The translations under genes were made by a program, and so were the position numbers. A stretch of 64,000 bases of DNA from Darksidea phi (lineage: Eukaryota > Ascomycota > Dothideomycetes > Pleosporales > Lentitheciaceae), in the NCBI GenBank assembly GCA_030770425.1, contig JASJFT010000113.1, positions 81,994 to 145,993 of the forward strand, in the 5' to 3' direction. Below are positions 19,953-63,924 of the stretch, in pieces (the stretch's first letter is position 1; every line of letters begins with the position of its first letter). The notes below the pieces were generated by a model. The model searched no databases. It saw nothing but the letters and a program-made list of their open reading frames with translations, and was not told the origin of the DNA.

Positions 19953-20582
19953 GAATTTCTCATCCACGCTTACTCTTCTGGATGGCCGCTGTCCTAGGCA
20001 AGTTCTAGAAGCAAGGCGGGCTGTGCAATATCCCGCCCGCATCCGCATGATGCAACCGAGCCGATAGCCTGCGGTTGTTGATTCTTCGCAAACAGGGTTT
20101 ATTTTGCCACGGGACTACAAGTTTTGAGTTTGGCTGTTCGGCCTCACGTGGAGTAGCTTCGGATAAGCACGGATCGCTGAATCAGCGTGTTACTTTCCTG
20201 GAGGATTAAGGTACGATATTCGGCGATTTGTGTTTTGGGATTTTAGTACGATTTATTTGAGGATTTAACGACGCCATGTATTTACCATCTCGCATCCATC
20301 TGACCTTGCGCGGTCACTTTTGCGAGAAAGCATTGAATAGCTTTGAAGAATTAGTAATATTTAGATACCCACTTATAATGTTGTTTCAAGTGCGTTCGCC
20401 GCGTAGGATATGTTATGTCGTTGGAAAGTTTCACTTTCTTCGCATTCCGATGCCCCAATTGATTCTAATGTGTACGAACGCCAAGACCTGTGTCCGTGCA
20501 ACCCCTGCCAAAATTTCTAGCAATTCGGCATCCCACGACCTGGTCAACTCTCTCAAATCCATACGGGACCGGGACCATCGCA
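19953..20582. other. Intergenic region between the SYLF gene and RRP7
   Basis: 3' trailer of the SYLF gene followed by the promoter of RRP7. No supported gene or repeat; the segment 20210-20400 is moderately AT-rich. Confidence 0.45.
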
Positions 20583-21678
20583 ATGGCTGCCGTAAAGCCG
20601 CAAAAAGCCTCAAAGTCTAAATCCGTCCCCACATCCGTCGGTGAATTCACCATCCTTCCACTCACGCTACCAAAACTGCCGGGTCTGCCGGAAGCCTACA
20701 GCGATGCGAAACATTACCTCTACATAAAAGCGCACGCGCCCTCAGTTCCTACACCTTCCGCCGATCGAAGTCTCTTCATAGCGAACGTACCAATCGATGC
20801 GTCTGAAAACAATATACGGCAGCTCTTCGCAGACCAACTAGGCGGCTCGCGCGTTGAGAGGGTGGAATTCGATTCTTCGATTCCTGCTGCGCCGACACAT
20901 AAACGGTTCAGGGACGGGGCTAAGAAGTCAAAAGAGGGTGATGGAGAGGTTGAGAAGAAAGGCAAGAAGCGGAAGAGAGATGAGGATGTGGTTGCGGAGG
21001 GTATAGTGGAGGATGAAGAGAGTGCTTTCCCGAGGATTTGGAGTGGGGAGCTTAGGAGGAGTGGAAGTAGTGCTGTGGTGGTTTTTGTGGATAAAGAGAG
21101 TAGGAGGGGCGCGCTGAAGGAGGTGCAGAGGGCGGTAAAGAAGGGGAGGGATGTGAGCTGGAAAGGCGGGGATGCGGGGGTCGTTGGCGTTGAACGTGAG
21201 TATCTTCCTTTCCGTGTATAACCCTACGATATACACCAAACCATCGTGCATCTTCGTCCTTAACAGTAACGCTAACATCCCCCTAGGCTACAAATCCCAC
21301 CTCTCCCTCCGCTACCCCGAACCAACTCACCTCCTCGCCACAACAACCGCCTACCTCACCCAATACGACCGCATAACCACATCGCGCAACCGCCTCCTCG
21401 CCGCCTCGCGCGCCGTCCCCGACGAAGACGGCTTCATCACCGTGACCCGCGGCGGTGGACGCACTGCCCCAGCGGCGCGTATCGAGCTAGCCGAGCAGAA
21501 GAAGACGGAGCTAGAGGAGCGGAAAAAGAAGAATGGTGTCAAGGCCGACTTTTATCGGTTCCAGAATAGGGAGCGCAGGAAGGAGGAGGAGATGAAGCTG
21601 AGGAGGGGCTTTGAGAGGGATCGGAGGAGGGTGGTGGAGATGAGGGAGAGGAGGGGCGTTGTTAGGCCGGAGGATTAG
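20583..21678 (+). CDS. rrp7: Ribosomal RNA-processing protein 7
   Basis: Two exons (20583-21195, 21287-21678) give 334 residues. After a basic start, residues ~55-100 form an RRM-like segment (RSLFIANVPIDASENNIRQLFADQL). A Lys-rich acidic insert follows. The second exon ends with the family's C-terminal block GVKADFYRFQNRERRKEEEMKLRRGFERDRRR. Rrp7 works with the Utp22/CURI complex in early 40S assembly and pre-18S rRNA processing in the nucleolus. ATG 20583 is preferred to upstream non-ATG codons in the same frame, because MAAVKPQKASK begins a typical N-terminus. Confidence 0.92.
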
Positions 21679-22274: not shown

Positions 22275-22346
22275 GTGAGGTGCGGTGCAGTGAGGTGCAG
22301 TGAGGTGCAGTGAGGTGCAGTGAAGTGCAGTGAGGTGCAGTGCGGT
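22275..22346 (+). repeat. Decamer tandem repeat (TGAGGTGCAG)n
   Basis: Seven consecutive 10-base units, with one changed base in some copies (tgcggtgcag, tgaagtgcag), stand head to tail in the intergenic space between RRP7 and the kinase-HET gene. A short G homopolymer precedes it near 22250. Confidence 0.9.
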
Positions 22347-22794: not shown

Positions 22795-25700
22795 CTAAAC
22801 GAAAAGATCCATCAGTCCAGCACCAGCATCACCATCCACTCCGGCATTCATCCCATTCAAATCCATTGTCGCTGCGGCGGTCTTCCCCTTTGGGTTCCCA
22901 TTCACTTGTCCACTTGCATTCATGTCCAATCCTACCCTACTGCCAAAGTATGAGTCGAATCCAGCTGGTTCGCCATATTGGACGCCTTGTGCGCGATAAT
23001 CTGACCCTGCTGGGAGAGGATATCCTCTCCCAAGCTGTGACTGGTCTCCGTTGACGCATGGTCGGAGATCGTTTTCGATTGAGGGGCCGAGGTCATGATT
23101 GTGATCCGAGTATTCAGTCAGCTCCCTCTCCAGGAGTGACTGCAACAGATCATCCTGCTCTTCGTCCTGAATCTTGGACTGGACGTTGTCGATGGCGGCG
23201 GCCATTCTTATCTCGTGAGCAGCATGAAGCTCGCCTTGAGCTTCCATCGGATCTCCGAACCCATCCCCTTCTTTCCGGATCCATTGTTGATTGCGAAGGC
23301 AACTTTTCATGGGAGGCGACTTGTGCATAAACTGCTTCCCGGTAGCTTCCACATCACTGAGAGGGGAGAGCTTGCGCCCATCATCGCCATGTGGCGATTG
23401 AGCGTTGGCGACGGGGGTCGTCTTGGTGTGGACCCTCTCCCAGAGGAGAGGCGGTAGACCTCGTGGGAAGGTTTCACTCGCTTTGAGCGTGTTGCACTCC
23501 CAGTACATCTGCTGTTCGCCAAGATGGAGATGGCGGGGTGAGAGGAACCGCTCCTGGAGCGCCCAGGCCCGTGTATCCCAGCCGAAGCCCGGAGTCCGGA
23601 AGTCGATAGCGGCGAGAGCCGCTGACGAGCTGTCTGTCCTACCTGGCGTTCTACAAGGAACCTGTATACCATCATGCGTGCTTCTACTGCCCTCGTGTAT
23701 ATTGGCTTGGTCATACACGGAGCTCTGAAGCTGGTCAAGCACGATCGTCAGGGCTGAGTTACGATAAACATCCGCCATTGCAAGACATTCTCGTTTTTTG
23801 TCTTCTTCGGAATCCTGCAGAACACAGAGCGAATCGACCCAGATGTAGCGGTATCCGATGCGACGCGCAGCGGAGATGGCTTCATTGAGAGCCCTAGGCA
23901 GTAGCTCCCGAGAAAGTTCACTCTGCATCGCCTGCAGACGATTGGTCGAAAGGACGGGTTCATCCCGGCCCCATAAGTAGCCTAGTGAGACATAGTCAAT
24001 TGAGCCCGACGTTGATTCAAGCTGAGCGCTGTCCACAATGCGCACAGAGCTGCCTGCGACATCGTTGGGTCGGATGTCGACTAGACGTGTAGGAAGGGCT
24101 TTGGCCCTGTTTGCCTGTTGGCGACATGCGTCATGATCGTGCGAGCATTCATCTAGCCAACTCTTCGCGTGTGCGACTGAGTCGCATAGCTGCTTGTCAT
24201 CGTTATCGCCATGTACATGGAAGTGTGCACGGCAATCGATGCCGTCCCCGCGGACGAACATCTCTACCGATGCGGACTCCTCAAGCGGCCCAGGATAGGA
24301 TACTTTCTCGTTTGGCCAGCTGAGACAGCAGGGGGCAGGTGTGAAGGTCATTGTCAGTTTCGCGGCGTCGGGCCGCAGCGTGGGTTCGGGATCCAACATG
24401 GACTTGACTGTGCGGACGACTGTTGCTTCGGTGAGGTCCTTGGCTTCTGCCAAGAATTGAGACAGCCAGTCGTGCACAGCCGGAACATCTTGCCAGTAGT
24501 ACTTGCCTTCACGACCGCGGAATTCCCGGCGGAATTCCAGCCAGTCCGAGTTGCCTTCGCTGAAGGCGACAGTCGCCATTTCAGCAAACACACAACCCAG
24601 ACTCCAGATGTCAGCAGCTTGTTCGCGTGAGGTTCCTTCAGGGACCTCTGGCGCGCAGTATTGGCGTGTAAGTGGCTTAGACTTGCCGTCCGAGGTCGTC
24701 TCCTCGAATGAACTGATACCGAAATCGCTCAGTACGACGTGAGGGAACTCTTGGTCGCCTTGCATGACCAAGATGTTTTGGGGCTTGATGTCCATGTGCT
24801 TGACCACCGGACGTTGCTCGTGGAGATACCGAACCGTCGATGACAAGCAGCCGAGCATGCTGACGATGATTTGAGCTAGGCCCAAGGGCCGGTTCAATAT
24901 GGACGTGTCAAGCCATGCTGCAAGTGTTGTTTCTGCCACGGGTGAGAGGAGGATCGACATCTTGTCGCCCTTTGAATAAGCGCCCAGGAAGCGGACAACG
25001 TGGGGGTGCCGAAGCTTTTGGAGCACGTCTACTTCCTTCTTCAACTCTTCAAGAGCCGAGTGGTCGCGGTTCTTAAGTGTCTTCCGACTAACCCTTAGGC
25101 TTGTCTCGCGATGCACAACCTCGTCCACTGTACTGAAGCCGCCCATACCGAGTAGCTTCACGCTGAGGAATGATTGTGAGTTCAGCGGAGATACAGACCT
25201 CCGTAGGGGATCAATGGCGTTTAGTGGACCGGTAACCAACGGATCATCCGATGGCAGGTCGACATCAATCGGTGGGTCGGGCGCGATTGCCGCAGGTATC
25301 TGACAGATTTGTGCTGTCTGGGTAGCGTCGTCCTGCTGGCCTGAGCCGTCTGCACCATGGTTAAGCGGGCGATTGCCATCAGAGTGCACTCGACCTAAGG
25401 ACTGGGTGACAACATTTCCGGCCAGAGCATGCGAGTGAGTTCCCTCTGTCGTATCAGACCTTCCATGTACCTGTTTCCCGTCGGATGTAGTTGGGTTGCA
25501 GGTTGGCTTAATATGCCTTGTGTCACTTGTGGTTTCGTGTTCTGTAGATTGAGCGAGGTTGAAATGGAAGTATCCGCCCTGTGGAGGCTGCTGTCCACCA
25601 CCATTATTGCCGCCATTGCCGTTGTGTTTGGAGCCGGAGCCACTGCCGCGTTGATCTTGGTTAGGTGGGAAGAACGGCTTATTGTTACCGAAGCCACCGC

Positions 25701-27227
25701 TATCGGGTCGATCACTGTCATCATCGTTATCGTCCGTATTGTCGGAATCGCCGTTGTGTTCATCGTCATCGTCAATCCAGTCTAGCATACACTTCCCTTG
25801 CTTGAAGTGCTCCGCAATGTGGTCAATGCGATCCTGTCGCTCCGTGAAGCGATGAGGACAGAAGCCACAATTCTTGGGGAACCCGGTGTCAGATTCCACA
25901 ATACTCGCCTGCTCATAGTCGGCGCAGTTGAGACCAGGGTGGATGTTCCGGAAGTGTTGGGAGAAGTGGTACTTCCGGAAGCATGGCTTCACTCGTACGT
26001 CGCCCTGGCTGACGCAGAGGGCACCTACAACTAGTCAGCATCTACTAGCTTCGTCGCTGCGCAAAATCAAGCCAGCTAATTACAGCCATAACAATCCATG
26101 TAGAGACATGGAGAGAGTTACTTACAGATCCACGATTTCGACGGATACCCCTCTTCCTCGTTCCGCTTCCAGTCACACTTGCGACCGTACCGCTTGCCAC
26201 ACTTCCGTGTGCATTGGTAGATCTTGTTAGAATCACGCTTGAGCAACTCGGGGTCATCTGTAGGGTTGCAACCTTTTCGACCGCCTCGCAACGGGCTTTG
26301 GGTGGTCGTTGCCGTCGCGACCGCCTGCGCGTCGAGATTGCAGGGAAGTTCAGGGAACAGCGGCTGCGCAACAGTCTCTGAAGGTCCGCTGGTACCCGTA
26401 TATAGGATAGGGTCCAGCTGCTGAGTGAAGCCCGTTTGCGACTTGTAGGCAGAATCGTGTGTCATGCCTTGCTTCAATGCCTGACCGAACCAGTGTCGGA
26501 TGGCTGTCGCCGACTCGCCAGTCAGTTGGGATAGAGAGTCAATATGACGGTCGCTAATATAGATTAGTCGATGTACTGCTGTTGCTGAAAGTCTCAAAGA
26601 CTGATACATACCTGGGCAGCACATTGTACTTGGTGAACCACGTCGCGCACACATCAGCAGCCTCATCACTAAGCCCCACATCGCCGGAGCTGGATGGCGT
26701 CGGCTGAGTATCAACAGCCCAGCTGGACCCCGAGACCGAGGCCGACCCAGTGAAGGGCGAATACGCAACGCTCTCGTGTCGCTTGGGCTGCGGAAAGTCC
26801 TGGATATCGAGTTGTAACGGTCGCTTGCCCAGAGCGGAACCATTGAACTGAGGGTTGTAAATAGTATCGAATGACTGCGCAGGCGTAGTCGGGAACGGGG
26901 CCATTGTGGTTGAGCTCACATCACCCCATGACGCTCCTGTCGAGGTGTTATCCAAGGTCTGCACTGTCATCAGCCATCCATCCGACCGTTCTAAAGTGTG
27001 ACACTTACAAGAGGCTGCTCCAGACCGAAGCTTGTGCTGATACTAGGGTCGAATATCGAGTCAAACGATTGCTGGCCGAATATGGAACCGCTGGTAGTCG
27101 TATCGATGCCCTCATCGAAGTAGCCGGACGCGGTATTACCCTGTCCGGAAGCCTTCAAGCCGTTGAACGACGGTTGGGGCATTGTGAAGTCGAAGTCGAA
27201 GTTCAAGGTAGCGTTGTGGGCGTCCAT
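22795..27227 (-). CDS. Homeodomain-like / C2H2 / protein kinase / HET fusion protein
   Basis: Four exons (27227-27009, 26958-26612, 26553-26126, 26024-22795) sum to exactly 1,408 codons with canonical splice sites, giving 1,407 residues. In order: residues ~169-217 homeodomain-like (SDEAADVCATWFTKYNVLP...AIRHWFGQ); ~302-405 C2H2 region (first finger degenerate, then CVSQ...KYHFSQHFRNIH and CGFCPHRF...DHIAEHF); an Asp/Asn/Gly-rich linker; ~617-887 Ser/Thr kinase with Gly loop GMGGFSTV, Lys646, HMDIKPQN (Asp743), DFG (765) and CAPE (789-791); ~955-1180 HET domain with LPTRLVDI, SLGYLWG, YIWVDSLCVLQD, YRNSALTI and WALQERFLSPRHLHL. All kinase catalytic residues are present. HET domains drive vegetative-incompatibility cell death; C2H2/homeodomain parts suggest nuclear DNA binding. 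How the parts cooperate is unknown. Fusion by missed stop is unlikely: kinase and HET lie in one 3.2-kb exon. Confidence 0.88.
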
Positions 27228-28416: not shown

Positions 28417-30933
28417 TCAGTCCAAATTCTCCACAACAACCCAAACCACGCCCTCCATCCCCATATCCCTACCCGCAAGCCCACCCTCCCTAACAGCCTT
28501 CTTCATCTCCCACCTCGCGTCCCTCAAATCCCTCCTCAAATCCATCTTCTCCCTCCGCAACACCCTCTTCTTCTCTCGGAACCTCTTGCGCATCTCCTTC
28601 CACTCTCGACTCTTCTTGCCCAAGCCCTGCCGCTTCAACGCCCTTCTCTCCCGTCTATACGCCTTGCGCAACTCCCGCTTCTTCTCGCGGCACTCCCGCA
28701 TAACAGCGCGCTTCGTCTTCTTCGCTTCAATTTTGATTTCCAGGGCCGTCTTCTCGCGCGTGGCTTTTTCAATGGCGTTTCCGCGCTCGAGTTGGATGGC
28801 TGCGGGACTTTTCTTGCCTTTGAGGCGTGCAGATTCGGCTGCAGCGTTGATGTCACGGATGCGCTCGTAGAAGAGCTTTTCGGCATCGGGGTAGTTCTTT
28901 TCGTCATCATCGTCAACGTCTGAATCTGAGTCTGAGTCGCTGTCGGAGGAGATGGTGGAGGCGTCGTCGTCATCGTCGTCATCGTCCTCCGCTTTCTCCT
29001 GAGTTTGGAGCGAGGCATCAACTGATCTGTCTCCGCTCTTCTCGTGATGCACACCCGTCTCCTGCCCCCGAAGAGGCTCTGATTCAGCAGCATGGGGCGC
29101 ACCCGTGTGCTGTTGAGACTGCTGAGTGGGCCACTGTCCATGTCCACTCGCCGGCCCTCCACCAACATTCCCACTCGCCCTCGCAGCAACATCTTCACTC
29201 CAAGCCTGCGCATTCCTCCCAACCTGCTCACCCCAAACCTCCATCCTCTTACCGAGCTCCTCGCCCCACTTGCCAATGTTCTGTCCCCAAGCTTCCCAAC
29301 TATTCGGCGAATGTGGACCAGGTCCGCGAGGCTGAGAACCGCAGCCGTGACCGGGACGACCACGACCCCAAGCGCCATTTCCAGGCGCACCAAATGGTCC
29401 ATTTCCCGGTCTACCGAAAGGTCCATGTCCAGGTGTCCCAAAGGGTCCGTGGCCAGGTGTGCCAAAGGGGCCAAGTCCGGGAGGTCCAAAAGGCCCATTT
29501 CCTGGTCCTCCAAGGGGAAGCCATGGCTGGCCACGATGGCTTCCCCATCCTCTTCTACCTCGCCCTTGCCAGCCAACAAATGGCGGCCACCCAGGAGCTT
29601 GTGGGCCGTCTTGCGGACCAGTTGGGAAAGCGCCCGGGATCGAGTGCGGAGGATCGTCTTCATGACCCGGAACAGAATGCGGAGGATCATCATTCCCGAC
29701 CTCCCTTGTCTCAGCCATATCGCCAGATGCAGTCTGATTTGGCGTTCGTGGTAGATGCTGGAGACGCTTGACCATCTCTGTAAGGATAAGAGCTGAACTA
29801 CTCGATTCGGGGACGTTGGTTTCGAGGGCTTCGATCCAGGGGTGTAGTGCTTCTACTTTGTTCACTGGAGTCGTCGTCCTGTCGAGAATGCTCGCTACAG
29901 CGCCAGCGCGCTGACCTCTTTCTTCTGGTATCTTGGCTACATCCAACAGCGCCGCTAGTGACTTGACTGAAACTCTCAGACCCCGTGGAGCGAAGAACAC
30001 CTCGTTTGTAGCATTGATATAATTCCGTACAAGTGCAGCAGATGAATCTCCGTCCAACGCTGCTTCGGTGATATCGGCGGGTGTGGTTCCAGTAGCAGCG
30101 CACAGAGCGTTAAGACCGTCGAGGAAGTCGAGAAACTCAGCTGGTCGAATCGAATGCGCATGCAAAGCCTTCGCATAAGCTCTCAGGAACTCGGCTGGCT
30201 CTTCCTCCCCATCCACCCCCGCTGCCAAAGTCTCGCTTGAAGTGTCGGGCCACTGCCCCGGTACGTGTCGGCTGCCCCATCCACCTCTTCCTCTGCCGCG
30301 TCTAGCTCTCCTATCACGACACCCATGCTGCTTGCCCTTTCCCTTCTTGTCTGTCGAGGAAGAAGCTTGAGCTAGAGGAATCGCCACGCAGCGCGTAAGG
30401 CGCGGCGCATACCGCGTGTCAGCATCGGGCTCATGCTTTGTGAACTCCAACGCCGTACTCAACAGAACAGCCGTCGGATCGATAGGCGGAGTACCCACCC
30501 TCCCTACAGCAATACTTTCACTACTACCAACGTGCTGCACCGGTACACTCCTATCCCTTCTCTCTTGCTCAAGCTCAGCAGTCGTCGCGCGATGCGCCCT
30601 TACATCCGCACTCGGCGGAATCTGATAAACGCCGTTATCATTCAATCGCAACCGCTGCACGTCGATAGTCTCCGGGTTCACAGGCGAGATGCCGTTCCGC
30701 GCATCTCTCAGAGCCTGTTCTTGTGCCTCGTCATACGTGGGCGGTAAATCATCGTAGTGCGGTCCTGCACCGGGACTCTGCGTAGGGGTCGCTATGAAAA
30801 AATCCTCATCGTCTGATTCTAGACCGTCTGGGAAGGTGCTCGATCGGGGGGTAAACGGCGCATTCGAAGCCGTCGATGAAGATGGCGGGGGCGGAGGATT
30901 GATGTTGAGGTTTGAGAGCGGTTTGTCGGGCAT
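28417..30933 (-). CDS. Unknown protein with PPxY motif, Gly/Pro repeats and basic coiled-coil tail
   Basis: A single exon of 838 residues. Visible parts: a Pro/Ser-rich start; LPPTY at residues 63-67, a PPxY motif of the kind bound by WW domains of Rsp5/Nedd4-type ubiquitin ligases; an Arg/Gly-rich basic patch; a conserved-looking helical block (~245-395, around EFLRAYAKALHAHSIRPAEFLDFLDGL); a Gly/Pro-rich array of octamers of the form GPFGxPGx; a long acidic run with SDSDSDSD; and a highly basic, heptad-like C-terminal tail rich in Arg, Lys and Glu. I recognise no named family. The PPxY and helical block suggest a ubiquitin-ligase adaptor or membrane-trafficking role, but that is inference only. 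Confidence 0.75.
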   Translation of the reverse strand: MPDKPLSNLNINPPPPPSSSTASNAPFTPRSSTFPDGLESDDEDFFIATPTQSPGAGPHYDDLPPTYDEAQEQALRDARNGISPVNPETIDVQRLRLNDNGVYQIPPSADVRAHRATTAELEQERRDRSVPVQHVGSSESIAVGRVGTPPIDPTAVLLSTALEFTKHEPDADTRYAPRLTRCVAIPLAQASSSTDKKGKGKQHGCRDRRARRGRGRGGWGSRHVPGQWPDTSSETLAAGVDGEEEPAEFLRAYAKALHAHSIRPAEFLDFLDGLNALCAATGTTPADITEAALDGDSSAALVRNYINATNEVFFAPRGLRVSVKSLAALLDVAKIPEERGQRAGAVASILDRTTTPVNKVEALHPWIEALETNVPESSSSALILTEMVKRLQHLPRTPNQTASGDMAETREVGNDDPPHSVPGHEDDPPHSIPGAFPTGPQDGPQAPGWPPFVGWQGRGRRGWGSHRGQPWLPLGGPGNGPFGPPGLGPFGTPGHGPFGTPGHGPFGRPGNGPFGAPGNGAWGRGRPGHGCGSQPRGPGPHSPNSWEAWGQNIGKWGEELGKRMEVWGEQVGRNAQAWSEDVAARASGNVGGGPASGHGQWPTQQSQQHTGAPHAAESEPLRGQETGVHHEKSGDRSVDASLQTQEKAEDDDDDDDDASTISSDSDSDSDSDVDDDDEKNYPDAEKLFYERIRDINAAAESARLKGKKSPAAIQLERGNAIEKATREKTALEIKIEAKKTKRAVMRECREKKRELRKAYRRERRALKRQGLGKKSREWKEMRKRFREKKRVLRREKMDLRRDLRDARWEMKKAVREGGLAGRDMGMEGVVWVVVENLD

Positions 30934-31639
30934 AATGTACTATCAGATGTAGGAAAGACAAGGACTTTAGACGATGTGTGTAGATTGTACACTAATATAG
31001 GGAGCTCAGAAGCTTATGTTGACCTTTAAACTCAGCGCTGCGACCCAGCCGTCTAATCTAAGTTCTATCCGTATTCGTCATCGCATCTGCAAGCGAACCG
31101 CCACATTGGGCAGGCTGAAGCTTGTACGAGCTGCTGCCTAGTTGCATCTGACCACCTCCAATCAGCCATTTTCGACCGCGCGTCTTGCGCCCGTAAAGCG
31201 CTGGTATCGGTCGAAGTATGCTGCCGAGCACCGCGATGCTACACAAATGGTCGAAGGATCAGAGCTCTACCTTCTTCTGGACTTCGTCGCTCTTCGACGT
31301 CTTTCTAAGTCGCGATGGAACTGTGGATGCCTGGTGTGGGGTTGCCACTCCACGCGTCATCTCCACGCTGCACAAGCTGTCCGTCAATACGAGGAGTACA
31401 CGTTGTAAATTTCCGCTTCCTGTTATCGCGGCATAATTAGATAACATCGTCACGCACCGAGACTAGTTTATGTCCTCATCTACTCAACCTCGCACAATGA
31501 ATCCCGAGGTTTAGCTCTCAAGGAGAACTAGATGGATCAGAGCGCTGGCGATCGTAAATCATCAAACATAAGCCATCCTCATCCGCTTCAGTAAATCATT
31601 GCGAGGATGGAAGCACATCCCGTAGACCGATTACGCTCC
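30934..31639. other. Intergenic region between the PPxY gene and DMC1
   Basis: Promoter side of the 838-residue gene and trailer of DMC1. Frames of up to 88 codons have no domain. Nothing else is visible. Confidence 0.45.
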
Positions 31640-61145: not shown

Positions 61146-63632
61146 TCAATACCATCCATTTGGAACAGCGCAACACAAGCCACAGAATCTCGGCGCTCCT
61201 TCTACGCGCGGCGCACCAGCCATACTACCCACGAGCATTGTCGCAGTAGGCCGCTCCTCCTTGACAAGCTCAAGCATCCAGAGAATCCAATCCACCATGA
61301 AATTATCTGATTCTCGGCCCGACAACTTGAGATCTTCCACGTACCCTGCCAACGTTCCATAATTCGCGTGTATGTACTCTTCCTCTGTCCTGTTTTTCCG
61401 AAAGTACTCGCGCATAGACTTGACGGTGCGGCCTTTAAGCGTAACCAACATCTCCAAAAACACGATCCCGAGGCTCCAGATATCAGATAATGTATTTCGG
61501 GGTTGAAGGTCGACCACCTCGGGAGCAGCGTATTGTCTAGTCATGTCGTTCACCATGCTCACAGTGGTGCTGCCTGTAGCCTCTGAGAAGTCGAATGAGA
61601 GGCCGAAATCGGTGAGCAAGACGCTACCTTGATGCACTAGCACATTACTTGGTTTGACGTCCTTGTGTCGGATGTTTTGGTCGTGTAAATATTTCAACGC
61701 ATAGGCAAGACAACCGAAGAAGGTACGGAGCTCGGGGTAATTGGATGGGCTGGCGTCGGCGAGATACCTGGAGAGGTCCATGTCGGCGATCGGTGTCATG
61801 ACTAGGCCCAGGTATTGAGGATCCGTGTAACTGCCGATCAAATCCACTACGTGGTGGTGTTTGAGACGCTTCAAGGTCTGCAGTTCCGGCACTAGCGGGT
61901 TGAACATTTCTGCCTGTCGCCTGTTTGCAAAAATCATATTTCGTGGAACTCGTTTCCGTGTATATTCTCTGAAAGTAGTCAAACTTAGCACTTTGTCCAC
62001 CTCGCCGAAACTACCACTACCTAGGATGGTCATCCTCTGGAAGGGGACAGGTTCATCGTCCCAGAAATGGTGGTGCCCGCCGTGTTCTAGGTCCAATGAA
62101 GGAGTTAAAACAATATCTTGGATTTTGAGAAACGCACTGCGCTGGGATGGGGTAAAGCAAGTTGGCACGGTGCTTGCCGTGGCTGGGAAGTGAAAATCAG
62201 AGAAGCCAGAGCTGATCACGTTATCCAAGAGGTCGAGACATTGCATTTGCCGGAGTACGATGTACGTTCTTGGAAACTTGCTACATCGCGAGTCGGAGAG
62301 CTTAAGCAGAGATGAGATTTGGAAAATCTCCGCGTCCGTGAAGCGCGTTATGGCGCCGTGATCATGAAATAAGGCTGTTATTCGGACAGCTGCGGTTTGA
62401 GCTGTCGTTCGGGTAGGTATTGAGCGTGTTTCAAGGCATGGGCTCGTCGCCGTAGGAGAGAGCTTTTGGGCCGTTGCCTCAAGTGTAGACTCAAAAGCAA
62501 CGGTAGGAGCTGGTCTACTAATGGGTGTCGGGGCTATTGTCGTACGGATGGGCATTGGGCGTGTCTCAAGGTTTGGGCTCGATGCCATACGAAAGGGCGT
62601 TTGGGCTACCGCCTCAGGTGAGGACGGTCGGGGCGTTACCGAGCTTCCCTTTATTGCCCTTTCTAGAAGCTTCTCAGCTTCGACAATGTTATCTTTGATA
62701 AAATTGGGGTTGAAAGCGACTTCGCACTCCGAGGTATGGCCCTTTGTGCAGATCTCCAATAGCGTTCGGCATTGCGACTCGGACTGGTCATATCTCTCCT
62801 GGCCCAGCAGGCTGACCGTCAGCTCCCTTGCTCTTAATATTTCCATTCTTAATTTGTCATTGGATTTGTACTCCATAGCGTTTGAAAGTGCCTCTTCTGC
62901 CTCCTGCCACCTTTCTTGCCCATTCAAGGCCCGTCCAAGCTCGACCAAGGCGTAATGAGCGTCAGTTTCCACCAGGTGGTCTCGTTCGCCCAATGCATAC
63001 CGTATTATTCGCTCTGCGTCTAAAAAACAAGAGGCTGTCGACAGAATATTTGCTAAATTATTCAAGTACCAGCCGGCGTGGTTGTCGCCAGATTGATATT
63101 CACTGAACCATTTCTCAACCAGTAGCTTTGCCTCTCCCAACCTCCTTTGGTCAAAGATTAATCCAGCTAGGAGGATCTTACTAACATATTCTTTTCTTTT
63201 TGCAGCTGCGAGTGTTATCTTTCTATTTAAGAAGGCAGTATAAACTGAAAGATAGGGGCTTATCTTCTCTCTTTGCCGAACTAACCACTGAAGTATTGAC
63301 TCCGCCTCATGAGTTTTTTTTTGTTTTGCAAGGCTCAGAGCGAGCGATTGCGAGTCATCCAAGTATGACAAACCATGATAAATGTCTTCTTGAGTCCCCA
63401 TTATTTTGAACTTTCCGTGTACATTCTCGAACCATTTCTTCAATCGCCCATATAGGCGCTCCGCATCTTCATATCGCCCCTCTCTATAGTACCGATAAGC
63501 GCGCCGCCTATCATTTTCGATCCATTCTTGTTTCCCGATTACAGTTGCCTTTGCGCGGCTCGATTTCACGTAGTCCGATTGTTTCTTCGATTGTCTCTTA
63601 GCAAGTTTCCGTCTAAAGCCCAAAAACTCCAT
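61146..63632 (-). CDS. TPR-like repeat and protein kinase fusion
   Basis: A single open exon of 828 residues. Residues ~40-330 are helical TPR-like repeats (RAYRYYREGRYEDAERLYGRLKK, YLNNLANILSTASCFLDAERI, ALVELGRALNGQERWQEAEEAL). Residues 330-415 are a linker containing two imperfect copies of an ETRPMPIRTT / ETRSIPTRTT motif. Residues ~420-510 form the block commonly preceding Pezizomycotina kinases (ITRFTDAEIFQISSLLKL, FTPSQRSAFLKIQDIVL). The kinase domain (~535-805) shows GSGSFGEV, Lys560, HKDVKPSN (Asp658), DFG (675-677) and AAPE (702-705), so it looks catalytically able. A Cys-rich tail (CGLCC) ends the protein. TPR-kinase combinations in fungi are usually uncharacterised; a signalling or incompatibility role is inferred. 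Confidence 0.9.
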   Translation of the reverse strand: MEFLGFRRKLAKRQSKKQSDYVKSSRAKATVIGKQEWIENDRRRAYRYYREGRYEDAERLYGRLKKWFENVHGKFKIMGTQEDIYHGLSYLDDSQSLALSLAKQKKTHEAESILQWLVRQREKISPYLSVYTAFLNRKITLAAAKRKEYVSKILLAGLIFDQRRLGEAKLLVEKWFSEYQSGDNHAGWYLNNLANILSTASCFLDAERIIRYALGERDHLVETDAHYALVELGRALNGQERWQEAEEALSNAMEYKSNDKLRMEILRARELTVSLLGQERYDQSESQCRTLLEICTKGHTSECEVAFNPNFIKDNIVEAEKLLERAIKGSSVTPRPSSPEAVAQTPFRMASSPNLETRPMPIRTTIAPTPISRPAPTVAFESTLEATAQKLSPTATSPCLETRSIPTRTTAQTAAVRITALFHDHGAITRFTDAEIFQISSLLKLSDSRCSKFPRTYIVLRQMQCLDLLDNVISSGFSDFHFPATASTVPTCFTPSQRSAFLKIQDIVLTPSLDLEHGGHHHFWDDEPVPFQRMTILGSGSFGEVDKVLSLTTFREYTRKRVPRNMIFANRRQAEMFNPLVPELQTLKRLKHHHVVDLIGSYTDPQYLGLVMTPIADMDLSRYLADASPSNYPELRTFFGCLAYALKYLHDQNIRHKDVKPSNVLVHQGSVLLTDFGLSFDFSEATGSTTVSMVNDMTRQYAAPEVVDLQPRNTLSDIWSLGIVFLEMLVTLKGRTVKSMREYFRKNRTEEEYIHANYGTLAGYVEDLKLSGRESDNFMVDWILWMLELVKEERPTATMLVGSMAGAPRVEGAPRFCGLCCAVPNGWY

Positions 63633-63924
63633 TGCCAGGCCTTGTCTCGTAGTAAATTGTAGCTCGACCGGAAACGTGAGGCAGCAGCGCGGGGTATGCC
63701 AGGTCGGGAACGGCGTTGTTGCTTGGGCATCTGCCTTACAACTGTCGCGACAGCGGTGACAGGCGACGCGAGGAGACGATAGATGACCGCCAAGGTGATT
63801 GTAACGAGACCGGGAGAAAGCGCGAAACTAGGTGGAAGTATGGAGGAAGAATGTAAATGTGTGCCAGCGAAGAAACGGCGCACGGCTGAAATGTGTCATT
63901 CGGGCTCAGCCCAGTTGATGCATG

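Follow-up and report, generated by a model that had tools for sequence, protein, structure and literature searches.

A Predicted Single-Chain Protein of Darksidea phi Joining a Transcription-Factor-like Front End, a Non-RD Kinase and a HET Domain

The 64,000-nucleotide stretch of Darksidea phi DNA analyzed here (the window; assembly GCA_030770425.1, contig JASJFT010000113.1, positions 81,994 to 145,993) possesses a minus-strand gene (27227–22795) whose four exons encode a protein of 1,407 residues. We tentatively propose, with a probability of about 45%, that it is a conserved single-chain signaling protein, probably a nuclear kinase controlling a TIR-like HET domain in cis. The basis in hand consists of the architecture and its conservation, the kinase residues, the HET match and predicted fold, and the disorder predicted for the linker of a relative.

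Conservation of the Kinase–HET Pair

A database of about 5.8 billion proteins yielded 239 relatives at E ≤ 0.001, and a second search, with a distant member as query, 309 matches; the best 120 of each were listed, giving 144 distinct relatives when pooled. Both searches scored the candidates sharing most words with the query, and further relatives beyond those listed, including outside Dothideomycetes, may exist. Kinase and HET domains are annotated together in 119 of the best 120 of 239, the exception (P0104) being labeled partial, and in all of the best 120 of 309. Related predicted proteins in Dothideomycetes, whose existence an earlier note on this DNA had considered possible, appear to be numerous. 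Pfam scans (136 relatives as alignments A2, A6, A7 and A8, the remaining eight one by one) detected the kinase in 144/144 and HET in 143/144, which gives the fusion the recurrence in several genomes that the same note had named as support. Such recurrence, 119 of the 120 best relatives, argues against a chance fusion. The kinase-to-HET spacing is 405–473 in 138 of 145 sequences (window protein included).

Orthologues among the best 120 of 239 are 41–72% identical across many genera. The named hosts extend from Lentithecium, at 68% identity, as far as Delitschia; Alternaria, Bipolaris, Pyrenophora, Parastagonospora, Didymella and other genera are also represented. Taxonomy look-up placed Delitschia, Lojkania and Clohesyomyces in Pleosporales, and Zopfia and Lizonia in Dothideomycetes incertae sedis; with the remaining ones assigned to the orders we take them to belong to, the named hosts appear to fall in Pleosporales or in close relatives of that order.

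Of the first 120 relatives, 100 show the homeodomain part in their alignment and 117 the last zinc finger, those lacking front-end parts being shorter gene models; many of the 24 relatives added by the second search are models that start inside the linker. Conservation over these 120, taken as the mean frequency of the commonest residue, is 0.82 for the homeodomain-like unit, 0.84 for the C2H2 block, 0.76 for the kinase, 0.57 for HET and 0.80 for the segment following it. The linkers (0.47–0.52), the N-terminus (0.62) and the tail (0.33) complete the profile.

Gene Model

The window assembly comprises 51.35 Mb in 477 contigs. Splicing of the gene was predicted from sequence: among the combinations enumerated, with GC donors allowed, 48 keep the frame open, and two of these have strong donors (GTAAGT, GTATGT, GTAAGT) at all three introns. 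The two differ solely at the intron 3 acceptor, giving 1,407 or 1,409 residues; the former is favored by the SWxC(S/A)LC found in relatives at that junction. The exons sum to 4,224 bases, or 1,407 codons and a stop, in agreement with the 1,408 codons counted earlier, and both the kinase and HET lie, as had been read before from a single 3.2-kb exon, within the uninterrupted 3,230 bases of exon 4. Judged from the sequence, the gene is real and the fusion is not an accident of gene prediction. The features, all on the minus strand, are as follows.

27009–27227, minus strand: exon 1, residues 1–73, start codon at 27227; many full-length relatives open with a similar M...F.FD
26612–26958, minus strand: exon 2, residue 74 to split codon 189
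26779–26826, minus strand: pair of basic dipeptides resembling a nuclear-localization signal, KR-x12-KR, residues 118–133 (alignment)
26454–26685, minus strand: degenerate homeodomain-like three-helix unit, residues 165–222, split by intron 2 at 26554–26611 (profile, model)
26126–26553, minus strand: exon 3, split codon 189 to split codon 332
25804–26279, minus strand: C2H2 block of the fungal homeodomain-C2H2 type, residues 281–405, split by intron 3 at 26025–26125 (hhalign)
22795–26024, minus strand: exon 4, 3,230 bases, residues 332–1407 and stop; holds linker, kinase, HET and tail, with no intron
25174–25803, minus strand: acidic, Gly-rich linker, residues 406–615, the site of foreign domain pieces in some relatives
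24358–25173, minus strand: protein kinase, residues 616–887, non-RD (H-M-D), catalytic residues present (Pfam, alignment)
23551–23994, minus strand: HET domain (PF06985), residues 1009–1156 (Pfam, alignment)
23419–23550, minus strand: conserved HET continuation, residues 1157–1200, MYWECNxLKASETFPRG (conservation 0.80 for 1161–1200)
22798–23418, minus strand: variable tail, residues 1201–1407, including a single short conserved motif, about 1242–1260 (conservation)

The tail motif, RxxQWxxKEGDxxGDxMEA (residues 1242–1260, window about 23239–23295), is kept amid poor conservation. A short tandem repeat of the GTGCAGTGAG type was noticed by eye just downstream of the gene (window about 22280–22345).

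Kinase Domain

Pfam PF00069 matches residues 620–887 of the window protein with E 6.8e-39 and 134.3 bits, far over the cut-off. Lys646, Asp743 and the DFG motif (765–767), described as intact in the earlier note, are all present, and the window kinase is complete in its catalytic K, E, HxD, N, DFG and APE. The same twelve residues (K646, E662, H741, D743, K745, N748, DFG, APE) are complete in 120/120 relatives. Between the H and D of the catalytic motif these relatives carry Met (100), Leu (17), Gly (2) or Lys (1) and never Arg, which makes the kinase non-RD in all 120. The sequence is consistent with an active serine/threonine kinase of the non-RD kind.

HET Domain

The PF06985 match reaches E 1.2e-22 and 81.2 bits against a cut-off of 22.5. 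The core strings by which HET had been recognized, SLGYLWG (1011), YIWVDSLCVLQD (1058) and ERFLSPR (1156), occur in the protein as reported. Three blocks, LSYxWG, W-D-x-LC-x-x-Q and W-x-LQE, which we take to be the HET consensus and also see in HET proteins of the window's genome, are recognizable, the first as LGYLWG. The minus-strand loci L008, L015 and L016 are left aside in this comparison within the genome. Core positions W1060, D1062, L1064, C1065, Q1068 and R1086 are kept in 117–119 of the 120 relatives, and the window protein retains both the WG and the putative catalytic Glu (E1156, in a W-x3-E block), possibly the counterpart of the TIR catalytic Glu.

A PDB sequence search with the window HET part gave no match at E ≤ 1, and Foldseek on the HET model gave nothing at E ≤ 0.001. 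The profile of alignment A1 returned 2,480 PDB rows, the best 60 being kinases, since that alignment was made of whole proteins. We suppose that the HET domain is TIR-like and may induce cell death.

Transcription-Factor-like Front End

Pfam scanning of the full window protein at E ≤ 1 matched neither a homeodomain nor C2H2, and nothing exceeded the cut-off N-terminal of the kinase and HET. Homeobox_KN matched 5 of 15 homologous pieces, with a best E of 0.033, and scored 13.4 bits on the window piece, below the homeodomain cut-off of 24. A PDB search with the homeodomain profile placed antibody chains on top, with a weak match to TGIF1 (E 0.089). The AlphaFold model of relative P0091 contains three helices in this part, with a predicted local distance difference test score (pLDDT) of 83–95.

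The C2H2 block aligns by hhalign with L021, a homeodomain-C2H2 factor encoded in the window's genome (probability 98.7%, E 4e-16), and with L027, another locus of this genome (E 5e-14); the homeodomain part matches L021 faintly (E 0.003, probability 10%), with the modules in the same order. The last finger, C384/C387/H400/H404 (C-x2-C-x12-H-x3-H), is complete in the window protein and in 116 of 117 aligned relatives, Pfam being silent on it. The homeodomain-like and C2H2 labels given earlier thus have no Pfam hit in the full protein and keep the weaker support of the Homeobox_KN matches in homologous pieces, a profile match, one intact finger and a three-helix model.

The position aligned with Asn51 of homeodomains (a numbering we presume, placed through the alignment to L021) is Q213 in the window protein; among 100 aligned relatives it is Q or R in 95 and N in one. 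The first zinc finger, inspected by eye, lacks the histidines present in its L021 counterpart. Both substitutions make DNA binding doubtful, and the "DNA-binding front end" of the earlier note lacks support as worded. By its sequence, the front end seems to descend from a DNA-binding module that may no longer read DNA in the homeodomain manner.

Amid a loosely conserved N-terminus, the KR-x12-KR pair is invariant among non-gap relatives of the 120 (K118 in 93/93; R119, K132 and R133 in 94/94), which hints at nuclear import, and the pair may act as a nuclear-localization signal.

Linker and Foreign Domain Pieces

The distance from the C2H2 block to the kinase is 162–800 residues in 120 of 145 sequences (window protein included). 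The linker is predicted to be disordered in the model of P0091; at full length this model has a mean pLDDT of 55.8 and a predicted template modeling score of 0.39, a confidence too low for domain contacts to be read.

In 6 of 144 relatives, all scanned with Pfam, the linker contains a foreign piece at E ≤ 0.001, about 0.14 chance matches being expected among 144 proteins at this threshold. These are two ankyrin repeats in P0001 (E 7e-14), NPHP3_N in P0018 (E 1.4e-13), ubiquitin in P0131 (E 5.3e-8), the C-terminal ketoacyl-synthase domain in P0064 (E 8.7e-8) and P0039 (E 2.3e-4), and patatin in P0031 (E 1.7e-4; 22.3 bits, under the curated cut-off of 27.7). A seventh, ketoacyl-synthase in P0113, has E 0.0016 and 18.5 bits, under a cut-off of 20.8. 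All seven are partial domains and all fall within this linker; none was found in that of the window protein itself. Aligned with close relatives, the pieces of P0001 (identity 68% over the aligned part) and P0064 (71%) are clean insertions at two different points of the linker; the standing of P0064 as second ketoacyl-synthase carrier of alignment A2, and the position of its piece, come from its sequence and a precomputed annotation. The patatin piece of P0031 is seemingly common to P0135 and P0131, judging by eye from the sequence that follows it.

The count excludes a Kdo match in P0018 (E 1.4e-4), which falls in the kinase, and weaker Pfam matches (E 0.0038 to 0.1) whose positions were not assigned. 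Pieces seen by eye were also left uncounted: HSP70-like, Zn2Cys6, kinase-like, aspartyl-protease-like and, in P0121, a patatin-like one on which Pfam is negative.

Where a front end is present (108 relatives), the linker makes up 45% of non-domain residues (N-terminus, linker 1, linker 2 and tail, the kinase–HET spacer being excluded), and the location of 7/7 pieces inside it corresponds to p of about 0.004, a rough value which ignores shared ancestry and includes P0113 as well as P0064 and P0131, whose models start inside the linker.

The donor domains belong to large gene families of such genomes, so the simplest account is that a linker tolerant of insertions picked up coding DNA at random. 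A further reading, which we consider improbable, is that the linker is a landing site whose pieces act as bait, sensing an attack on the imitated protein and relaying it to the kinase–HET unit; for plant immune receptors, the integrated-decoy model offers a parallel.

Proposed Mechanism and Alternatives

The proposed cis control would act through a chain composed of a front end of homeodomain-C2H2 descent, a disordered linker, a non-RD serine/threonine kinase and, at the C-terminus, a TIR-like HET domain, the whole being most likely nuclear. A partner or ligand would be bound by the front end and linker, the kinase would then switch on, probably via autophosphorylation, and the active kinase would unlock the HET domain, resulting in regulated cell death or immune-like reprogramming. 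Here we infer kinase activity, location, the sensed input, kinase-to-HET control and the death output alike.

Ranking close behind, and itself quite possible, is the reading that HET has become a dead or weakened scaffold which binds partners, in a nuclear developmental or stress kinase that kills nothing. Several observations favor it over cis control of a killing domain. HET is less conserved (0.57) than the kinase (0.76) and the C2H2 block; the Gly of WG is kept in 17 relatives and missing in 103 of the 120; and the putative catalytic Glu, E in 89/120, is D or N in 30/120, a group including every named Alternaria, Bipolaris, Pyrenophora, Stemphylium, Curvularia and Decorospora record among the 120. 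Conservation across many genera is also unlike the hypervariable incompatibility genes treated in the available part of PMC10197012. However, the core HET positions persist in nearly every relative (117–119/120), Pfam still recognizes HET in 143/144, and the window protein retains both the Glu and the WG.

A strict vegetative-incompatibility (het) gene, whose polymorphic alleles trigger death after hyphal fusion, would suit the fact that several cloned het genes contain a HET domain, as the accessible portion of PMC10890737 states. We regard this as very unlikely, given the 41–72% identity of orthologues in many genera, the single copy among the loci scored in the window's genome and, in the same portion of PMC10890737, a share of just 4/132 incompatibility genes among the HET-domain genes of Podospora. 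The copy number derives from a search of the genome with the kinase–HET segment, which gave 78 matches; both halves are covered at the window locus only, the others being kinase-only or HET-only, so that no second copy emerged among the 76 of 317 first-look candidates scored, although a weaker one is possible. HET itself is abundant in this genome, with at least 152 matches (150 of 346 candidates scored).

Finally, a gene-prediction or assembly artefact, which predicted splicing and the relatives' models without a front end might suggest, is rejected with near certainty: one open exon holds both domains, and the pair recurs in relatives from different assemblies and sources.

Few fungal domains are as abundant, or as poorly understood, as HET, whose mode of action is described as open in the available parts of PMC10197012 and PMC10890737. 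The pairing of a complete kinase with a HET domain, at a nearly constant distance in many genera, would make control of a TIR-like HET by cis-phosphorylation directly testable. Allorecognition is unlikely to be the conserved role of this HET gene. The window protein is a good test case because the presumed catalytic residues of kinase and HET are both retained in it.

Other Kinase Loci and Neighboring Genes

Locus L027 (G000:C444, 1458–4331) encodes a C2H2 block followed by a kinase, without HET. It belongs to a small sporadic family with 23 matches, including Byssothecium, Kalmusia and Amniculicola, the weakest being plant kinases; PF06985 is in none of the 23 among the domains listed. Origin of the window gene from L027 is not favored, the two kinases being just 27% identical.

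A second kinase gene lies about 34 kb away (window 61146–63827, minus strand), with TPR-like repeats followed by a kinase. The repeats are under the Pfam cut-off, the kinase carries H-K-D (by eye) and is 30% identical to the kinase described above, and no HET match was found in this gene. The convergent neighbor (20469–21678, plus strand) is Rrp7-like (RRM_Rrp7, E 1.1e-20). The upstream one (28417–30939, minus strand) is an open frame of 840 residues, Gly/Pro-rich with a basic C-terminus by eye, and without a Pfam match over the cut-off.

Comparison with Known Systems

The closest counterparts are Pleosporales predicted proteins with a kinase followed by HET, deposited as "Protein kinase domain-containing protein" or "dual specificity MAPK kinase 1", such as SNOG_11618 of P. 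nodorum and PTT_07438 of P. teres. Full-length ones share the front end of the window protein and are known by database names only; SNOG_11618 and PTT_07438 received no mention that we found in the open-access main texts searched. Likewise, among the open-access papers listed, supplements and preprints aside, no title points to a kinase–HET or homeodomain–C2H2–kinase–HET protein, and the earlier remark of knowing no description of this order stands to that extent. The modules are known one by one, while a protein uniting them in this order, and the conservation of such a protein, are apparently undescribed. The part of PMC10993733 at hand describes an upregulated HET gene in Bipolaris, which could not be linked to the window gene.

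Within the same genome, L021 has the same front-end layout but retains the homeodomain core WFANARR, whereas the window protein lacks Asn51 and the first-finger histidines; its open frame of 768 residues showed no kinase or HET motif on inspection, without a Pfam scan. L027 shares the type of C2H2 block and the kinase following it but not HET, and at 27% kinase identity it is probably a separate fusion.

The accessible part of PMC4986451 lists kinase and HET each among NLR N-terminal domains. The HNWD HET-NLRs (HET-E, HET-D, HET-R) and the HET-lectin BH, as far as the portions of the sources at hand describe them, unite a TIR-like HET effector and a regulatory part in one chain, a plan that the window protein would share. 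In the window protein, by contrast, HET is C-terminal and would be regulated, if at all, by a kinase; NACHT, NB-ARC and WD40 had no match in it (Pfam, E ≤ 1), so it does not classify as an NLR, the nearest trace being the NPHP3_N piece of the single relative P0018. The RIPK3–MLKL module, with which we claim no kinship, couples a kinase to an executioner, with another effector fold and in two chains versus the one chain seen here.

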